A DNA stretch of 64,000 nucleotides from a virus, in the IMG/VR virus record IMGVR_UViG_3300046694_000136, positions 124,001 to 188,000 of that record, one strand, 5' to 3'. This document shows, piece by piece, positions 54,437-61,837 of this stretch. The translations under genes were made by a program, and so were the position numbers. The notes under the pieces were generated by a model that saw nothing but the letters and a program-made list of their open reading frames with translations, searched no databases and was not told the origin of the DNA. The number at the start of each line of letters is the position of its first letter. Position 1 is the first letter of the stretch.

Positions 54437-56461
54437 ATGTCTAATAACTCACCAAATGAGCGCATGCGTCTGCTTGACGAGCAGTTGCGCCATCATGATT
54501 GGAAGTACCACGTCGAGGATGCACCGGAGATCGAGAATGATGCGTACGACGCACTCGAACGGGAATTCCGTGGTCTGTGTGAAGAATACCCTGAATTGGC
54601 TATTCAGTTTGATAGCCACACCAAAACGGTTCCTATTGATTTACCTGCTGACGGTCCGTTGGAGATTATCAAGTTCAACGACCCCATGCTCAGTGTGAAG
54701 AAGATCCACACACTGGAGGATCTGGCTAAGTTCATCAGTAAACTCCCTGATGATACTCAGTTGGTCCACGAGCTCAAGCTGGACGGCATGGCATTGCGTC
54801 TGCTGTACAAGCAAGGGCTTCTGGTCAGCATGGCCACTCGCGGAGCTGGTATGGTGGGCGAAGAGGTTATTCACGCACTTCCTCTTTTCGCCAAGGATGT
54901 TATCCCTGAACGGATCGAAACAGATCTGGACGAATTGGAGATTCGTGGTGAAGCTTGGATCTCCATGCGGGATTATCTCGAGTACAACGAGTCGGTAGAA
55001 GCCGCTGACCGTAAGAAAGATCCCCGTAACGCAGTAAGTGGATGGATCAGAACACACCCTAGCCGAATGGACCACAAGGTGCTGGATACCTTGCAGTTCT
55101 CTGCTTACTGGTCAGACGAAACCTTTGGTCTTGAAACCTATCGGGAAGTCAAGGAGAAACTGCGCAGTCTCCGGTTCGATACTCCTAATGAAGTCACCCA
55201 CGACCACATCGTAAAGAATCTGCGTAGTGATATGATTCCTACTGATGGGATCATGGTTAAGGTTGACTCCCTTAAACTTCAAAAGGAACTCGGTGTTGGT
55301 AACCGTCACCCTAACTGGAGTGTGGGGTATAAGTTCCCCCCAGCCGAAGGTACTCCCAAAGTCGTAACCGTAGAGTGGAGTACCAGTGGCTACGGTCGTG
55401 TGGTCCCGGTGGTGATCTATACCCCCATTAAGCTGGGCGGGGCTATGTTCACTCGGGCTTCCTTGGACAACTACGGGAACTTCATGGAACTGGGGTTGGG
55501 TGAAGGCGACACTGTTTCGGTAACACGGAACAATGACGTTATCCCTCGGTTGAACCACGTTATCTCCTCTGGTGATGGTGTAGCACTGGAAGCCCCTACA
55601 GAGTGCCCTAGCTGCTCTGCGTTGCTTGAGGTTAGGATAGGGAAGACTGGTTCCGAACTCGTGTGTAACAACCTCTCTGGCTGTCCTGGCCAGTTGATCA
55701 ACCGCACGGTGATCATGGGTGACAAGTTCGGGCTTGATATTGATGGATTGGGTCCAGTTATTGTCCACGACTTGGTTCAACGTACCTACATCAAACAACC
55801 CGCTGATGTATTCAGTTTGGGGGCTGGTGCGAATAACTTGATGTCCGATCTGTTGAAAGCGAACATCGAGAAGGTTAAGAACCAACCTGTTCCACTTCAT
55901 CGATTCATTAAAGCTCTGTGCCTTCCGGATATCGGAACGGTATTGTCGAAACGTATTGCCAACGCAATCATTAGTGGTAGCGACGGCTTCGCTAGTTCTA
56001 TGGTTCTGGCTTATCACGAGAACTCTGACAAAGACGTGTTTAAGTCGATGTTTGAAGTCCTCATGACCAAGCTCAGCTTCCTGAACAGCGTTCAAGGGAT
56101 CTCTAACGGGATTGCCATGAGCGTGGTCCGGTCTATCTCCAGTCCTATGTTCGACGATAACTTCAGCGCGATGGTAGACGCTTTGGTTCTCGACTTCGGG
56201 AAGATGGAGGAGTCCGGATACAAGGTAGCCATCACTGGTTCTTTCGATCAGGGTAAAGATGCGTTGATCAAGTACTTTGCTGAGCATGGCATTGAACTGA
56301 CCGACAAACTGACTCTGGATTGCAAGTACCTTATTGTGGGGGAACGTGCTGGTAAAGCTAAAACTTTAAAAGCAACTGATAACGCTATACCTATGCTGGA
56401 TGTGAATCAGTACCCGAGTATTGAACACCTCATTAACTACATCAAGGAAAACTCAGTATGA
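54437..56461 (+). CDS. ligA: NAD-dependent DNA ligase, full length, 674 aa
   Basis: ATG 54437 has a GGAG SD. All LigA parts are present: Ia NAD-binding segment (KYHVEDAPEIENDAYDAL, residues 23-40), adenylation motif KLDG with catalytic K114, OB domain, a four-Cys zinc finger (CPSC ... CNNLSGC), helix-hairpin-helix repeats and a C-terminal BRCT-like domain ending near residue 670. Size matches bacterial LigA (about 671 aa), so it is not truncated. It seals nicks using NAD+, making ligation independent of ATP and the host enzyme. The stop overlaps the next start (ATGA). phiKZ relatives EL and OBP are known to carry NAD-dependent ligases. Confidence 0.95.
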   Translation: MSNNSPNERMRLLDEQLRHHDWKYHVEDAPEIENDAYDALEREFRGLCEEYPELAIQFDSHTKTVPIDLPADGPLEIIKFNDPMLSVKKIHTLEDLAKFISKLPDDTQLVHELKLDGMALRLLYKQGLLVSMATRGAGMVGEEVIHALPLFAKDVIPERIETDLDELEIRGEAWISMRDYLEYNESVEAADRKKDPRNAVSGWIRTHPSRMDHKVLDTLQFSAYWSDETFGLETYREVKEKLRSLRFDTPNEVTHDHIVKNLRSDMIPTDGIMVKVDSLKLQKELGVGNRHPNWSVGYKFPPAEGTPKVVTVEWSTSGYGRVVPVVIYTPIKLGGAMFTRASLDNYGNFMELGLGEGDTVSVTRNNDVIPRLNHVISSGDGVALEAPTECPSCSALLEVRIGKTGSELVCNNLSGCPGQLINRTVIMGDKFGLDIDGLGPVIVHDLVQRTYIKQPADVFSLGAGANNLMSDLLKANIEKVKNQPVPLHRFIKALCLPDIGTVLSKRIANAIISGSDGFASSMVLAYHENSDKDVFKSMFEVLMTKLSFLNSVQGISNGIAMSVVRSISSPMFDDNFSAMVDALVLDFGKMEESGYKVAITGSFDQGKDALIKYFAEHGIELTDKLTLDCKYLIVGERAGKAKTLKATDNAIPMLDVNQYPSIEHLINYIKENSV

Positions 56462-57927
56462 CTGATAAGAAGGTCGACAAGGCAGCTGACGTAGCGGTTA
56501 AGGACGCCGTTGTCAAAGTAAAGAAAGCGGCTGAGGCTGTGGCTGTTGCTGAGAAGGGCGCTCCGCCAGCACCTGTCGAAACCAAACCGAAAGAGAAACT
56601 GGTCATTCCTGATTTCGGTAAGTACCACGGCAGTTCTCGAATGAGAAAGGCGGTTGAAGACGCCCGGAAGAGCGGTCTTTCCGTAACCCCTGTAGAAAAG
56701 ATCAAGGGCCCTACCGTCGTTATTTCTGGCATGAGCATCAGCCCGGTCGCCACCGGTCTCAAGCCCACTGGTTCGTCGGGTGATACGTACGTCCACGACG
56801 GCAAAGAGTTCTACCTGCCCGGTCACTTGTTGTACAACGCTCATACCCGTCAAGGTGTTCTCGAAGACGAGCCGTGGATCCGGACCAGCAGTTATCAAGG
56901 TCCGGAAATGTCGTTGTTTGCCTTCGTGTACGACAACGATACGTTCTGGTTGCTGATGGACGAGAACTCTACATTCACTCGTGATGCGGATTCTTACTAC
57001 TGCCGTACCAAAGGCGGTCAGTTGGTCATGATCAACTCGGAAAGCCACAACGACCAGTTCATCGGCAATAACGTACTGGTTAACGTCGAGTCCCATGACA
57101 ACATCCTCAACCAGACCAACATCATCGTCAACTCGGCCCGTGTCGGTCAGGAACGTGGCTGGGGCGACTCCAGTCCGTTCAAGGTCGGTAGCAAGCGTCA
57201 GGTGTACAAACATCTCCGCATGAAGAAGGTGGACGCTATCGACTCGGAGCTGACTCGTGGTCGTTACTTCTCCAGTAACTTCACCAAGTCCACTGTTGAA
57301 GGCACCGGTACTTACGAAAGCTCTGTTGAAAGTACTTTCCTGACCGAATGCCGTATCCGCGGTAGCCGTGTTCTGTTGACAGGACTTACCGGTGAAGCGT
57401 TGAACTTTGACGCTGAAGGCGAGATCCTGGTCAAGGGTGTGGGTAACCTGAAACACCAACACTGGTCTTTCCCGAGCATCCACGTTACCAACCGGTTTGC
57501 TTTCACCGAGATCGACCACATTACCCGTCATGATCGCGGTATCAAGATGGTACGTATCAGTCCTACTGAAGTTGAAGTTGGGCTGGCCATGTGGAAGGAC
57601 GGTGTCAAGGTAACTATCAACGCTCCGCGCTTCACGGTGGAGAATGCGATCCTCGACGGCCTGCGCGATAGCCGCGACAAGAAGCCTGAGCCTGCTCCGG
57701 CACCGGTAGGTCCTTTCGGCTCGTACATCCCTCCGTATCAGTCGTTGGGCCCCCGTAGCTATTACGGCGAGAAGCCGGGTGAAACCATTCGCAACTTCAT
57801 GGACAACTACATCGTTGACCAAGTGGTATCGCGTCTGGGCGTGATCCAAATGCTGGATGAGGTCGAAAGCACTGCCAAAGACCTCGATCGTACCCACCCC
57901 CACGATCACATTAACTTCCTCGAGTAA
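56458..57927 (+). CDS. Beta-helix-like unknown protein, 489 aa
   Basis: ATG 56458 overlaps the ligase stop. The N-terminal 60 residues are Ala/Lys-rich and flexible. The body shows repeated short strands ending in Gly/Asn turns, as in right-handed beta-helices, around VLVNVESHDNILNQTNI and RGWGDSSP. The same landmarks occur in the 452-aa protein downstream, so the two are tandem paralogues. The C-terminal 60 residues are helical (NYIVDQVVSRLGVIQML). Codon use is C/G-biased, so high expression is expected. Function is unknown; virion and surface roles are possible. Confidence 0.5.
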   Translation: MTDKKVDKAADVAVKDAVVKVKKAAEAVAVAEKGAPPAPVETKPKEKLVIPDFGKYHGSSRMRKAVEDARKSGLSVTPVEKIKGPTVVISGMSISPVATGLKPTGSSGDTYVHDGKEFYLPGHLLYNAHTRQGVLEDEPWIRTSSYQGPEMSLFAFVYDNDTFWLLMDENSTFTRDADSYYCRTKGGQLVMINSESHNDQFIGNNVLVNVESHDNILNQTNIIVNSARVGQERGWGDSSPFKVGSKRQVYKHLRMKKVDAIDSELTRGRYFSSNFTKSTVEGTGTYESSVESTFLTECRIRGSRVLLTGLTGEALNFDAEGEILVKGVGNLKHQHWSFPSIHVTNRFAFTEIDHITRHDRGIKMVRISPTEVEVGLAMWKDGVKVTINAPRFTVENAILDGLRDSRDKKPEPAPAPVGPFGSYIPPYQSLGPRSYYGEKPGETIRNFMDNYIVDQVVSRLGVIQMLDEVESTAKDLDRTHPHDHINFLE

Positions 57928-57936
57928 CCCTCTGTA

Positions 57937-57964
57937 CCTAAGTAACCCCTAGGGGTTACTTAGG
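57937..57964. terminator. Perfect 28-bp palindrome between beta-helix paralogues
   Basis: An uninterrupted inverted repeat spans 57937-57964, centred on CCCCTAGGGG, with no T-run. It may act as terminator, RNA processing site or protein-binding site between the two paralogues. Confidence 0.5.
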
Positions 57965-57985: not shown

Positions 57986-59344
57986 ATGACCAAGAAAACT
58001 GAAACCACTCCTGTTGAAAAGAAAGAAGTAGTTGCTCCGGTAGAAAGACGCCTGATCGGTCAAAAGGGTGTTATCGCTATTGGCGGGAAGATTCTGGAGC
58101 CCATTGCCCAGTTCGATAAGACTAACGGGCCGCTTTCCCATAACGGGGTTCTGTTAGTTGACTACAACTTTTCGCTGATAGGAGACAAGGCAGCCAAGCT
58201 TAGTCTCTATTCGTATACCGTGCGTAAAGACGGTAATGCGGAGGCAGTGGACCTTTTCATTCTGGCCGATGAATTATCCAGTCTGGATATGGAGGTTCCT
58301 GAGTATTTGGATTTTCAGGACCAGTCGTTTGCGGTTCTTACCCTGGTCAACTCATCCAGTAGGAATGACTACCTCCGTGGTGGGGTGGTATTGGTCAACG
58401 TGGCTACCACCGAGAATGCCTTTCAGGATTCTATTATTCAGATGCAAGGGCGTGGTTGGGGCGAGTCCCACGAAGTGATGCGGACTGACCCACTTTCTCG
58501 TCGTATTACCGTTAACAACGTCGACGCAAACAAGCTGAAGCTCCAGGGCCGACAACTGCCGCCGGGCATTTACCATGACGCTGACTTGTTCGAAAACACG
58601 TTCATTCGTGGTGAGCTGGAAGATGACGAACGACTCGTTACTATCAGCAACAGTACGATTCGCTGGAGTAGCTTCCGCGAGGGCGACATTACCATCACCA
58701 ACTCAATGGTCTCGCACACCGGTTTCCATTTCACCGGTGACGTTAAGTTGCACGGGGTTACTGTAGAGAGTGAGAACTTCGGTCATCTTCCGAGCATTTA
58801 TCTGAACAGTAAGTTTGACATGACGGCCATTGATGTAGCAGGTAAGAGTCAGGCCAAGATGATCCGGATTAATCAGGACAGAGTGATGATCACTCTTCCT
58901 TTATCCGAGGACAAGTATGGCACGCCCGGTCATACGCTTTGCACCATGTCTTTCCGTAATCCGCGTTCTCGCCGGGGTCTGCGTAACCAAGCCAATGACG
59001 TGTTGTTCGGGGATGACATGCCAAGTGAGATGGAGGAGAGTGTTCTCGACTATTTCGTGGATACCGTGTTGTCTCGTTGCAGCATGATGAACTTGGTGGA
59101 CAGCGCCAAGCGTCTGTTGAGTGGTAACTTGTTGGGAGTAAAAGAACCGCGTGCCCCACGTCCCCCAAGAGAGATGGGTCCTATGCAGCTTGCCCAGTCT
59201 GGACCTACCGGAGCTTTCTTCAGTCCGGGGCGTATGGACGAACGCGGGTTCGCGGAAAGTGCCGGTGATCTTTACGGCACTAGCACTGCCTTAGCAAATG
59301 AATACGACAAGACCATTTATATTGATAAGGTCACCAAATTTTAA
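57986..59344 (+). CDS. Beta-helix-like unknown protein, paralogue, 452 aa
   Basis: ATG 57986 has an AAGGAAATGAG SD. The layout is similar to the preceding gene: polar N-terminus, then the segment SSRNDYLRGGVVLVNV and RGWGESHE, which match SESHNDQFIGNNVLVNV and RGWGDSSP of the paralogue. The C-terminal helical section (YFVDTVLSRCSMMNLVDSA) also matches. Codon use is less biased than in the copy upstream. The pair probably arose by tandem duplication and forms a hetero-oligomer or two layers of one structure. Function is unknown. Confidence 0.5.
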   Translation: MTKKTETTPVEKKEVVAPVERRLIGQKGVIAIGGKILEPIAQFDKTNGPLSHNGVLLVDYNFSLIGDKAAKLSLYSYTVRKDGNAEAVDLFILADELSSLDMEVPEYLDFQDQSFAVLTLVNSSSRNDYLRGGVVLVNVATTENAFQDSIIQMQGRGWGESHEVMRTDPLSRRITVNNVDANKLKLQGRQLPPGIYHDADLFENTFIRGELEDDERLVTISNSTIRWSSFREGDITITNSMVSHTGFHFTGDVKLHGVTVESENFGHLPSIYLNSKFDMTAIDVAGKSQAKMIRINQDRVMITLPLSEDKYGTPGHTLCTMSFRNPRSRRGLRNQANDVLFGDDMPSEMEESVLDYFVDTVLSRCSMMNLVDSAKRLLSGNLLGVKEPRAPRPPREMGPMQLAQSGPTGAFFSPGRMDERGFAESAGDLYGTSTALANEYDKTIYIDKVTKF

Positions 59345-59357
59345 ACTCGAGGTATAA

Positions 59358-59849
59358 ATGTCCAAGCCCAAGCAAGATAACTACATCATCTATACGGATG
59401 GTGCTTGTAAGGGTAACCCGGGACGCGGCGGGTATGGTATCTATGCTCAGCTCGGGGATGTATTTACCGAGCTGAGTAAAGGCTATCACCACACCACCAA
59501 CAACCGTATGGAAATGATGGCAGTAATCGTAGCACTGGAAGAGTTCGGTCCTGGTATTAAGGTCGACATCTATACTGACTCCGATTACACCATCAAGTCC
59601 GCCACTAAGTGGGCTCGTGGGTGGGCGCGCAATAACTGGGTTACGTACAAGACTGGCCTACCGGTGAAGAACAAAGATCTTCACATGGTTATGTTCGAGT
59701 TGTTGAAACTGAACAAGGTCAAATTCCATTGGGTCCGTGGTCACTCCAAGATCCATGGTAACGAAGTAGCTGACAAACTGGCATCTGATGCCTGTGCAAA
59801 ACCAGAACTACAAGATACAGGTTACCTGCGGTCGATAGGGGCTATCTAA
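59358..59849 (+). CDS. rnhA: Ribonuclease HI, 163 aa
   Basis: ATG 59358 lies 13 bases after the previous stop, with a CGAGG SD. All RNase HI active-site residues are visible: D14 (YTDGA), E52 (RMEMM), D74 (YTDSD), H129 (VRGHS) and D139 (NEVADKLA). Size and spacing match bacterial RNase HI. It removes RNA primers or R-loops in phage DNA replication. The stop codon is inside a terminator hairpin, and the next gene is 31 bases away. It lacks an N-terminal hybrid-binding domain. Confidence 0.95.
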   Translation: MSKPKQDNYIIYTDGACKGNPGRGGYGIYAQLGDVFTELSKGYHHTTNNRMEMMAVIVALEEFGPGIKVDIYTDSDYTIKSATKWARGWARNNWVTYKTGLPVKNKDLHMVMFELLKLNKVKFHWVRGHSKIHGNEVADKLASDACAKPELQDTGYLRSIGAI

Positions 59850-59862
59850 GCCCCTCTTTAAT
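59837..59862 (+). terminator. Terminator overlapping the rnhA stop
   Basis: A 7-bp AGGGGCT stem (59837-59843 with 59849-59855) includes the stop codon in its loop and 3' arm and is followed by CTTTAATT. Confidence 0.6.
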
Positions 59863-59880: not shown

Positions 59881-60303
59881 ATGGATGGTACAGCTGTAGT
59901 AGAGGGCAACGCCAAAGTACAAGCGCTTTTTGAAGAGATCATGGGCATCGACAATAAGCGTAAGCACATCACCATACGCAACAAGTACGCAGTAGGGATA
60001 GTCCGGAAATTTCGAGAGATCTTCATTTACGATTATGATCGCTCGAGCCGCCCGTTGGTCAAGGTTAAGAAAGCCGGTCAGACTGTATTGTTACGGTTAG
60101 GGTTCGGGATCGACGAAACACTGGAGCTCCTGGAGAACCTACTGCGTATCATGCAAGCGTTTGGTACCCCTAAGGAAGAACCGATTGTACATCTTCCCAA
60201 GCCTATCCCTGTTGACGATCCTCGTAGTACCGTGGGGATCAACGAGGCCGGGAAGATCATCATGCACAGCATTACCGCTATTAAAAGACCGATTGCTCAA
60301 TAG
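59881..60303 (+). CDS. Unknown 140-aa protein
   Basis: ATG 59881 has an AGGAGAAAA SD. The product is alpha/beta with basic N-terminal half and a Pro-rich section (PKPIPVDDPRS) near residue 108. I do not recognise a family or motif. It opens a set of four short-spaced small genes (59881-61805) that ends with the 2H-phosphoesterase-like gene. Codons are ordinary. It is co-directional with rnhA, separated by a short hairpin. Confidence 0.35.
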   Translation: MDGTAVVEGNAKVQALFEEIMGIDNKRKHITIRNKYAVGIVRKFREIFIYDYDRSSRPLVKVKKAGQTVLLRLGFGIDETLELLENLLRIMQAFGTPKEEPIVHLPKPIPVDDPRSTVGINEAGKIIMHSITAIKRPIAQ

Positions 60304-60329: not shown

Positions 60330-60614
60330 ATGTATTACTTTTTTAAGCATAACGGGGTATGGCGGTACAAGTACCCAGGGGATTTAAACGCTAAAACGAT
60401 TGACACCTTTGCGTTAGAGCGCGTATTGGGTGTGATGGGTGGTCCTGAAGTTATCGTGGTAAGAGCGCAACCTGATGGCAACGTTTATCATATTAACGTT
60501 AAGCACGGCTTCATCGACAAAGTTGAGCACGCGGATACTACAGTTGGTCCGTTGGCTGACGGCACAAACTACATTGAAGTAACTGAATTCCACGCTAAGG
60601 AAATTACCCTATGA
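60330..60614 (+). CDS. Small unknown protein, 94 aa
   Basis: ATG 60330 follows an AAGGATT SD. The product is beta-rich with an aromatic N-terminus (MYYFFKHNGVWRY). Its stop overlaps the next start (ATGA), which indicates coupled expression. I saw no catalytic motif, membrane segment or Cys pair. Function is unknown. Confidence 0.35.
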   Translation: MYYFFKHNGVWRYKYPGDLNAKTIDTFALERVLGVMGGPEVIVVRAQPDGNVYHINVKHGFIDKVEHADTTVGPLADGTNYIEVTEFHAKEITL

Positions 60615-61339
60615 CTGTTCCAGCGACTCTTCCGCTTTCTTTGCACCATGTCGACTCCTCTTGGGTTAATCAGCGTGCTAAAGAGCTGAGTGACACCCGT
60701 GGTCATAAACGTCCTGATGTTAAGGGCGCGTTGACTGAGATTGCCGACAAGTTTGTTGATGAGGTTGGTGATAACCTCGACGAATCCCGCGACTTGGCTG
60801 TATACCAGCCCTCCGGGGATACTGACCCGTACATCATTGCAGTTCCGATCAAAGATGCCGTGGTCGCTGTTGTAGAAGCTCCTGTGCCGGTTTCTATTCC
60901 AGTCGGTGGTGTGTACCGTCCACACGAAGTTCCTGAGACCATCCAGGAAGACTTCGAGAACTTCCTTTTCGAAACCGAAACGGGTGCAACTCCTGCTGAA
61001 CTGGAGAAGGACTCTACCGGACGCTATACCCACAAGAACATTCGACTGATGTGGTACGGGTTCAACCTCTACCACCAGAAGATGACCATGGCTCGCCGTG
61101 CAGAGTTCCGTGCTGCGTACCACAAGGCTCTGGGTAGCTACATCGTCGGTAAGGTGTACGAGAACGGTGCAACTGTCTTCACCAAGGTTCCTGTGCGCTA
61201 CCGTAATAAGGCGCAGGCACTGGAAGAGGCAAACCGTCTTCTGGAAGAACAAGGCGAGGCGTGGGCCGTGTGGCGCTGCATCGACATCTTCGGTAAGTTC
61301 GATGTTCGTGTTCCTGAAGAGGACGCTCCTCAAGAGTAA
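60611..61339 (+). CDS. Unknown 242-aa protein
   Basis: ATG 60611 overlaps the previous stop. The N-terminal 80 residues are acidic and helical, then a Pro/Val-rich linker (PVPVSIPVGGVYRP), and a C-terminal basic helical domain of about 140 residues (LMWYGFNLYHQKMTMARRAEF). The basic domain could bind nucleic acid, but no known fold is recognised. It lies directly upstream of the 2H-phosphoesterase-like gene (37-bp gap), so both are likely co-transcribed. Confidence 0.4.
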   Translation: MTVPATLPLSLHHVDSSWVNQRAKELSDTRGHKRPDVKGALTEIADKFVDEVGDNLDESRDLAVYQPSGDTDPYIIAVPIKDAVVAVVEAPVPVSIPVGGVYRPHEVPETIQEDFENFLFETETGATPAELEKDSTGRYTHKNIRLMWYGFNLYHQKMTMARRAEFRAAYHKALGSYIVGKVYENGATVFTKVPVRYRNKAQALEEANRLLEEQGEAWAVWRCIDIFGKFDVRVPEEDAPQE

Positions 61340-61376: not shown

Positions 61377-61805
61377 ATGGCCAGTAACGCAGGTTATGTC
61401 CAAGTCCTGTTGCAAGAACCAGAGCGAAGCGAAATCCTAGGGTTGTTGGTTCAGGCTAGTATTGAAATGCCCAAGTACCCTCTTCATTGCACTGTTATGT
61501 ATGACGAGCGCGATCTGGATGTTCCATTGTGCACTGTGAACCCCAATAAGGTTTACGAGGCCACTATCCAGAATGTTGAGGTGTTGGGTGACGGACTGGT
61601 GTTCCATTTGATCTCACCGAGTTTGGTGGAGGAACACTTGCGGTTGAAAGACCGAGGTTACCAATCTTCCTTCGCTGCTTATCTTCCTCATATGTCCATG
61701 ACGTATAAGTTCGATAAGTACGATACCCTTAAAGCAGACTTCTTGTTTGCTAACTGGGCAGGGCGTAAAGTTACCTTCAGTGAAGAGCAGTTTGGTGATA
61801 AATAG
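61377..61805 (+). CDS. 2H-phosphoesterase-like protein (candidate anti-CBASS), 142 aa
   Basis: ATG 61377 starts the domain; longer frames reach back into the preceding gene and look spurious. Two H-x-T/S motifs are present, 68 residues apart: HCTV at residues 37-40 and HMSM at 105-108. This is the 2H-phosphoesterase signature (LigT/AKAP7, Acb1). These enzymes cut cyclic 2',3' or 3',5' bonds. T4 Acb1, an anti-CBASS protein of similar size, uses the same fold to destroy cyclic nucleotide signals. The second motif has Ser instead of Thr, which is common. Target nucleotide is unknown. An RNA-repair role is the alternative. Confidence 0.65.
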   Translation: MASNAGYVQVLLQEPERSEILGLLVQASIEMPKYPLHCTVMYDERDLDVPLCTVNPNKVYEATIQNVEVLGDGLVFHLISPSLVEEHLRLKDRGYQSSFAAYLPHMSMTYKFDKYDTLKADFLFANWAGRKVTFSEEQFGDK

Positions 61806-61811
61806 GCAATA

Positions 61812-61837
61812 CCTGCCCAGTCCTAGGACTGGGCAGG
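61812..61837 (+). terminator. Terminator after 2H-like gene
   Basis: A 12-bp stem (61812-61823 with 61826-61837) has a CCTAGG centre. GTCTATTATGCATTTTATTTTTT follows, within which a TATG element sits. Confidence 0.8.

Follow-up and report, generated by a model that had tools for sequence, protein, structure and literature searches.

A candidate lidless member of the Acb1 family of 2H phosphodiesterases in a jumbo-size phage

The founding member of the Acb1 family of 2H phosphodiesterases is the product of gene 57B of phage T4, with which the phage breaks down cyclic-nucleotide alarm signals of bacterial immunity; T4 Acb1 and nine homologues cleaved 3'3'-cGAMP (cyclic guanosine monophosphate-adenosine monophosphate) and cyclic tri-adenylate (cAAA) (PMC9117128). 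In T4 Acb1 and its counterpart from Erwinia phage FBB1 (PDB 7t26 and 7t27), aromatic residues (Y12, W74, F107 and, in the lid, W147) and E141 stack on the bases, contact N6 of adenine and close the pocket (PMC9117128). According to a 2026 review, no anti-defence protein other than Tad1 of phiKZ has been described in jumbo phages (PMC13282480). A study of Pseudomonas and Erwinia phages reports that, with dbAPIS, a large Pseudomonas phage yields an Acb1 match (PMC11780129). UniProt already names a protein of Erwinia phage RisingSun (A0A223LHU1) "Anti-CBASS protein Acb1" (CBASS, cyclic oligonucleotide-based antiphage signalling system). In our own search, phiKZ gave no Acb1-family match, while matches were obtained in phages EL, RisingSun, N1M2, SKa-4 and KT1019. 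Here we describe a relative of these proteins, encoded at positions 61377..61805 (+ strand) of a stretch of 64,000 nucleotides (the window) that covers positions 124,001 to 188,000 of the virus record IMGVR_UViG_3300046694_000136; at 234.5 kb, this record is of jumbo-phage size. On the evidence of its open reading frame (ORF), its match to PF23474 and its predicted fold, the 142-aa product, referred to below as the 2H protein, is assigned to the Acb1 family as a jumbo-type member that lacks the C-terminal lid.

The ORF runs from an ATG at 61377, a start position shared with close homologues, to a TAG at 61803-61805. An earlier sequence-only reading had pointed to two spaced HxT/S motifs in the product, and the translation agrees: HCTV occupies residues 37-40 and HMSM residues 105-108, with profile expect values (E) for the protein that lie far beyond chance. 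In the alignment to T4 57B, H37-C38-T39 (61485..61493, + strand) falls on H44 and T46, and H105-M106-S107 (61689..61697, + strand) on H113 and T115, so that the complete catalytic tetrad of Acb1 (H37, T39, H105 and S107) is present and in register. H37, T39 and H105 are invariant in all 26 aligned homologues, the fourth position being Ser or Thr throughout; altogether, homologues were found in 152 phage records. Between the gene and a relative of 79% identity (L001), the nonsynonymous divergence (pN) is 0.12 and the synonymous divergence (pS) 0.77, the synonymous sites being saturated, and by this comparison of the two sequences the gene is under purifying selection.

The profile search against Acb1 and 2H families that had been proposed earlier gave a single Pfam match, to Acb1 (PF23474; score 43.5 bits, curated cut-off 27, E 3.3e-11), which spans residues 7-118 of the protein and positions 4-118 of the 144 in the profile. 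The protein also matches phrog_755 (E 1.1e-21), and all 18 homologues compared, T4 57B among them, match both PF23474 and PHROG 755. When a jumbo-type profile was built without T4- and KVP40-type sequences, its top matches were again solved Acb1 enzymes, namely 9q2g (E 2e-13), a phosphodiesterase of Burkholderia phage BCSR5, and 7t26 (E 1e-9). Pairwise similarity is modest, with 28% identity to KVP40 57B (E 7e-13 in a single BLAST comparison) and 27% over 105 aa to T4 57B (E 9e-5); a phmmer search of the PDB sequences with the 2H protein alone returned nothing, the solved Acb1 enzymes being reached by profiles only. PADLOC and NCBIfam held no match for the protein, and a scan of bacterial genomes yielded no relative.

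An AlphaFold2 model computed from 24 sequences, T4-type rows included, reached a mean predicted local distance difference test (pLDDT) score of 91 and a predicted template-modelling (pTM) score of 0.84. It places both HxT/S motifs on strands (37-42 and 105-109 by DSSP), as the 2H fold predicts. Structure prediction, like the profile search, had been named earlier as a check, and the closest PDB folds are indeed phage Acb1-type enzymes, ahead of LigT. The BCSR5 phosphodiesterase, deposited as "Anti-CBASS protein Acb1", ranks first (9q2y and 9q2g; E 1.5e-7, template-modelling score (TM) 0.74-0.78), followed by FBB1 Acb1 (7t26 and 7t27; E 3e-6, TM 0.62-0.65) and, below these, a plant cyclic phosphodiesterase (E 3.5e-5); a poxvirus cGAMP phosphodiesterase, LigT (E about 1e-2), AKAP18 and CNPase score lower still (E 1e-3 to 1e-1). 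In BFVD the best match is the RisingSun "Anti-CBASS protein Acb1" (TM of the predicted fold 0.91). From the fold match we infer that the two catalytic histidines meet in one site. The similarity to BCSR5 has its limits, since the identity is only 17-19%, the BCSR5 enzyme has a lid (seen in open and closed forms), and its sequence relatives in phages BcepSauron and Motura keep W74 and two HxT motifs and branch apart.

These data also bear on an RNA-end enzyme as the identity of the 2H protein, that is, a LigT/ThpR-like 2',3'-cyclic phosphodiesterase or 2'-5' ligase serving RNA or tRNA repair or nucleic-acid turnover. LigT/ThpR, CNPase, AKAP7/18 and the poxvirus cGAMP phosphodiesterases share the 2H superfamily fold and the two HxT/S motifs with our protein, the gene lies downstream of ribonuclease HI (RNase HI) and a DNA ligase dependent on nicotinamide adenine dinucleotide (NAD) in several jumbo-phage genera, and "RNA ligase" is the product name that the family bears in public records. 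However, the LigT and 2'-5' RNA ligase profiles PF13563 and PF02834 do not match the 2H protein even at a threshold of E 10, nor does either match elsewhere in the genome (PF13563 is matched by 14 of 18 relatives at E up to 0.1), no family-level profile match links the protein to any of these enzymes, and the LigT folds rank far below Acb1. The product name likewise carries little information: the PHROG 755 label "RNA ligase" is given automatically in public entries to Acb1-family genes such as those of EL and RisingSun, and equally to T4 acb1. We therefore rejected the PHROG/RefSeq name as a functional guide and regard it as misleading for the annotation of Acb1-family genes. Moreover, neither RtcB nor an Rnl2-type ligase nor an AAA_33 kinase was found in the 234.5-kb record, which may be incomplete, in searches whose controls worked, and the window contains no tRNA genes; the search model for a ligase of the T4 Rnl1 type picked up none of its controls and carries no weight. 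An RNA-end function is accordingly improbable. The earlier assignment to the 2H group is thus borne out by profile, alignment and predicted structure, and the choice between an Acb1-like and an RNA-end enzyme, which had been left undecided, falls to Acb1 at the level of the family, PF23474 being the only matching profile of the two kinds and the best PDB folds being of phage Acb1 type. Several substrate-binding residues of T4 Acb1 are missing, so the term Acb1-like does not extend to the substrates of T4 Acb1.

In T4 numbering, the 2H protein keeps Y12, H44, T46, F107 and H113 as well as the conserved Y49, H95 and Y118, while T115 is replaced by Ser. The stacking aromatics Y12 and F107, whose roles are known from T4 (PMC9117128), correspond to Y7 (61395..61397, + strand) and F99 (61671..61673, + strand), whereas L70 (61584..61586, + strand) stands at the position of W74, leaving two of the four stacking aromatics. 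At the C-terminus (61794..61805, + strand), G140 aligns with E141 and the chain ends two residues further on, at residue 142, and thus lacks the lid region (145-152 in T4/FBB1 Acb1) with W147; because the alignment is loose here, the missing lid is better supported than the replacement of E141. A further difference from the T4 and FBB1 enzymes is a helix at residues 114-123 of the model, in a stretch where T4 Acb1 is shorter. Relatives are present in many jumbo phages, and two of them, gp126 of Pseudomonas phage EL (53% identity) and gp120 of RisingSun (the above-mentioned A0A223LHU1; 42% identity), share the residue pattern and the missing lid. Leu or Met at position 74, Ser at 115 and no lid in fact recur in L001, L022, EL, RisingSun, Hallingskeid, EJP2 and GAP32, and also in SNUABM19, TSL5, KT1019, N1M2, KPN8, LAh10 and L025, although Glu aligns at 141 in EJP2, TSL5, KT1019 and N1M2 despite this jumbo-type pattern. 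In the tree, a clade of its own (96/94) unites T4 and KVP40 with their relatives, which have E141 and mostly W74 and W147, and the jumbo-type rows group at 93/84, under the strict threshold. We found no prior description of a residue signature separating jumbo-type from T4-type Acb1 in a literature coverage that is incomplete, and newness is not claimed.

By analogy with T4 and FBB1 Acb1, from which both the chemistry and the anti-signal role are taken, the 2H protein is probably an Acb1 of the lidless jumbo type and would hydrolyse cyclic oligonucleotides that serve as defence signals, for example those of CBASS. It would act as a metal-independent 2H phosphodiesterase, in which H37 and H105 would serve as general acid/base pair and the phosphate would be held by T39 and S107. 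Attack of the ribose 2'-OH on the 3'-5' bond would, via a cyclic phosphate intermediate, open the cyclic oligonucleotide. During infection, CBASS or another host defence would thereby lose its second messenger before the effector switches on. Several points weigh against this assignment. Three of the five base-touching residues of T4 Acb1 (W74, E141 and W147) are absent along with the lid, and E141 accounts for the adenosine requirement of T4 Acb1 (PMC9117128). The gene lies in conserved DNA ligase/RNase HI surroundings, outside any recognised anti-defence island. To our knowledge, no activity has been described for the lidless jumbo-phage group, the EL and RisingSun members included. The missing binding residues would also suit a decayed or non-catalytic 2H protein, at most a sponge, but the catalytic tetrad occurs in all homologues, Ser for Thr is a standard conservative variant of the HxT/S motif, and the gene is under purifying selection, which makes such decay very improbable.

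The absence of W74, the lid and, in this protein, E141 may give the enzyme other substrates than T4 Acb1 has, and as judged from the aligned residues its specificity is perhaps unlike that of the T4 enzyme. Alternatively, the 2H protein may be a phosphodiesterase of the Acb1 family that has been retargeted to a different nucleotide signal, a reading that overlaps with the function favoured above and differs from it in the substrate; candidate signals are the larger cyclic oligoadenylates that type III CRISPR (clustered regularly interspaced short palindromic repeats) systems use, cyclic dinucleotides without adenosine, or linear messengers resembling 2'-5' oligoadenylate. The adenine contact E141, the stacking W74 and the lid are lost across the jumbo-type rows, and the helix 114-123 lies in a stretch in which T4 is shorter. 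T4 Acb1 rejects cyclic tetra-adenylate (cA4) owing to clashes in its pocket (PMC9117128), which a lidless pocket may not share, and type III CRISPR confronts nucleus-forming jumbo phages (PMC13282480). A query with the phiKZ nuclear shell protein gave no match here or in EL and RisingSun; it had no positive control and permits no inference on a phage nucleus. On the other hand, the support for retargeting is the loss of residues, and with Y7, F99 and the entire active site in place the protein would suit ordinary cyclic dinucleotides as well. We consider retargeting rather unlikely, if worth keeping in mind as a tentative second reading.

The surroundings of the gene are partly conserved. Upstream lie an RNase HI gene (59358..59849, + strand; PF00075, E 5e-42), which is a conserved landmark in the relatives, and three small genes without Pfam match (59881-60303, 60330-60614 and 60611-61339, all + strand). 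A terminator-like stem at 59837-59855 follows RNase HI, and a terminator-like perfect palindrome (61812..61837, + strand) stands directly after the 2H gene. These two stems agree with the earlier remark that the gene ends a run of small genes and, by their position, point to a single unit that probably comprises the 2H gene together with its three small upstream neighbours. Rfam detected no RNA at the 2H locus. EL and RisingSun keep the order of NAD-dependent DNA ligase, unknown genes, RNase HI, a variable insert and the 2H gene, and RNase HI is also found upstream in L001, L022 and KT1019. The insert itself differs: in place of the three small genes, EL carries a DHH/DHHA1 phosphoesterase and RisingSun seven genes, dihydrofolate reductase among them. 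In other jumbo phages the 2H gene is located elsewhere, for instance beside Sir2, nudix and nicotinamide phosphoribosyltransferase genes. These varied contexts neither prove nor exclude an anti-defence role.

Some of these neighbours deserve mention in their own right. The Acb1-like genes of Hallingskeid, EJP2 and GAP32 (L010, L011 and L018) stand beside a Sir2 gene, with nicotinamide phosphoribosyltransferase also nearby in Hallingskeid and EJP2 and, by annotation, a nudix hydrolase in the former; a cluster directed against nucleotide-based defences is possible. In EL, the DHH/DHHA1 phosphoesterase gp125 (L003 6509-7747) is encoded directly upstream of the Acb1-like gene. Phosphoesterases of this kind can degrade linear or cyclic dinucleotides, and the two EL proteins might together finish off a cut signal. 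Such a two-step pair was rejected for the present phage, whose genome gave no DHHA1 match. Further upstream in the window, two neighbouring large genes (56458-57927 and 57986-59344) without Pfam match resemble paralogues in their shared motifs RGWGDS and RGWGES, and the 28 nt at 57937-57964 between them form a perfect palindrome, CCTAAGTAACCCCT/AGGGGTTACTTAGG, that has no spacer. Residues 481-593 of PDB 8hds, the C-terminal part of the Pam3 portal protein, match the Acb1 profile (E 5e-9, or 1e-5 without T4-type rows), and this portal protein appears by sequence to carry an Acb1-like domain; a portal gene of a Rhizobium phage matches T4 57B weakly (E 4e-3).

The one point of real interest in the 2H gene is the possible difference in substrate from T4 Acb1. 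The contrast between the jumbo-type and the T4-type residue pattern poses the question whether an enzyme without the adenine contact and the lid cuts a different set of immune signals. It is conceivable, albeit less than likely, that the lidless Acb1 group of jumbo phages has a substrate range unlike that of T4 and acts, beyond classical CBASS, against type III CRISPR or further messengers; its substrates may, for example, be cyclic oligoadenylates of at least four bases, or signals free of adenosine.
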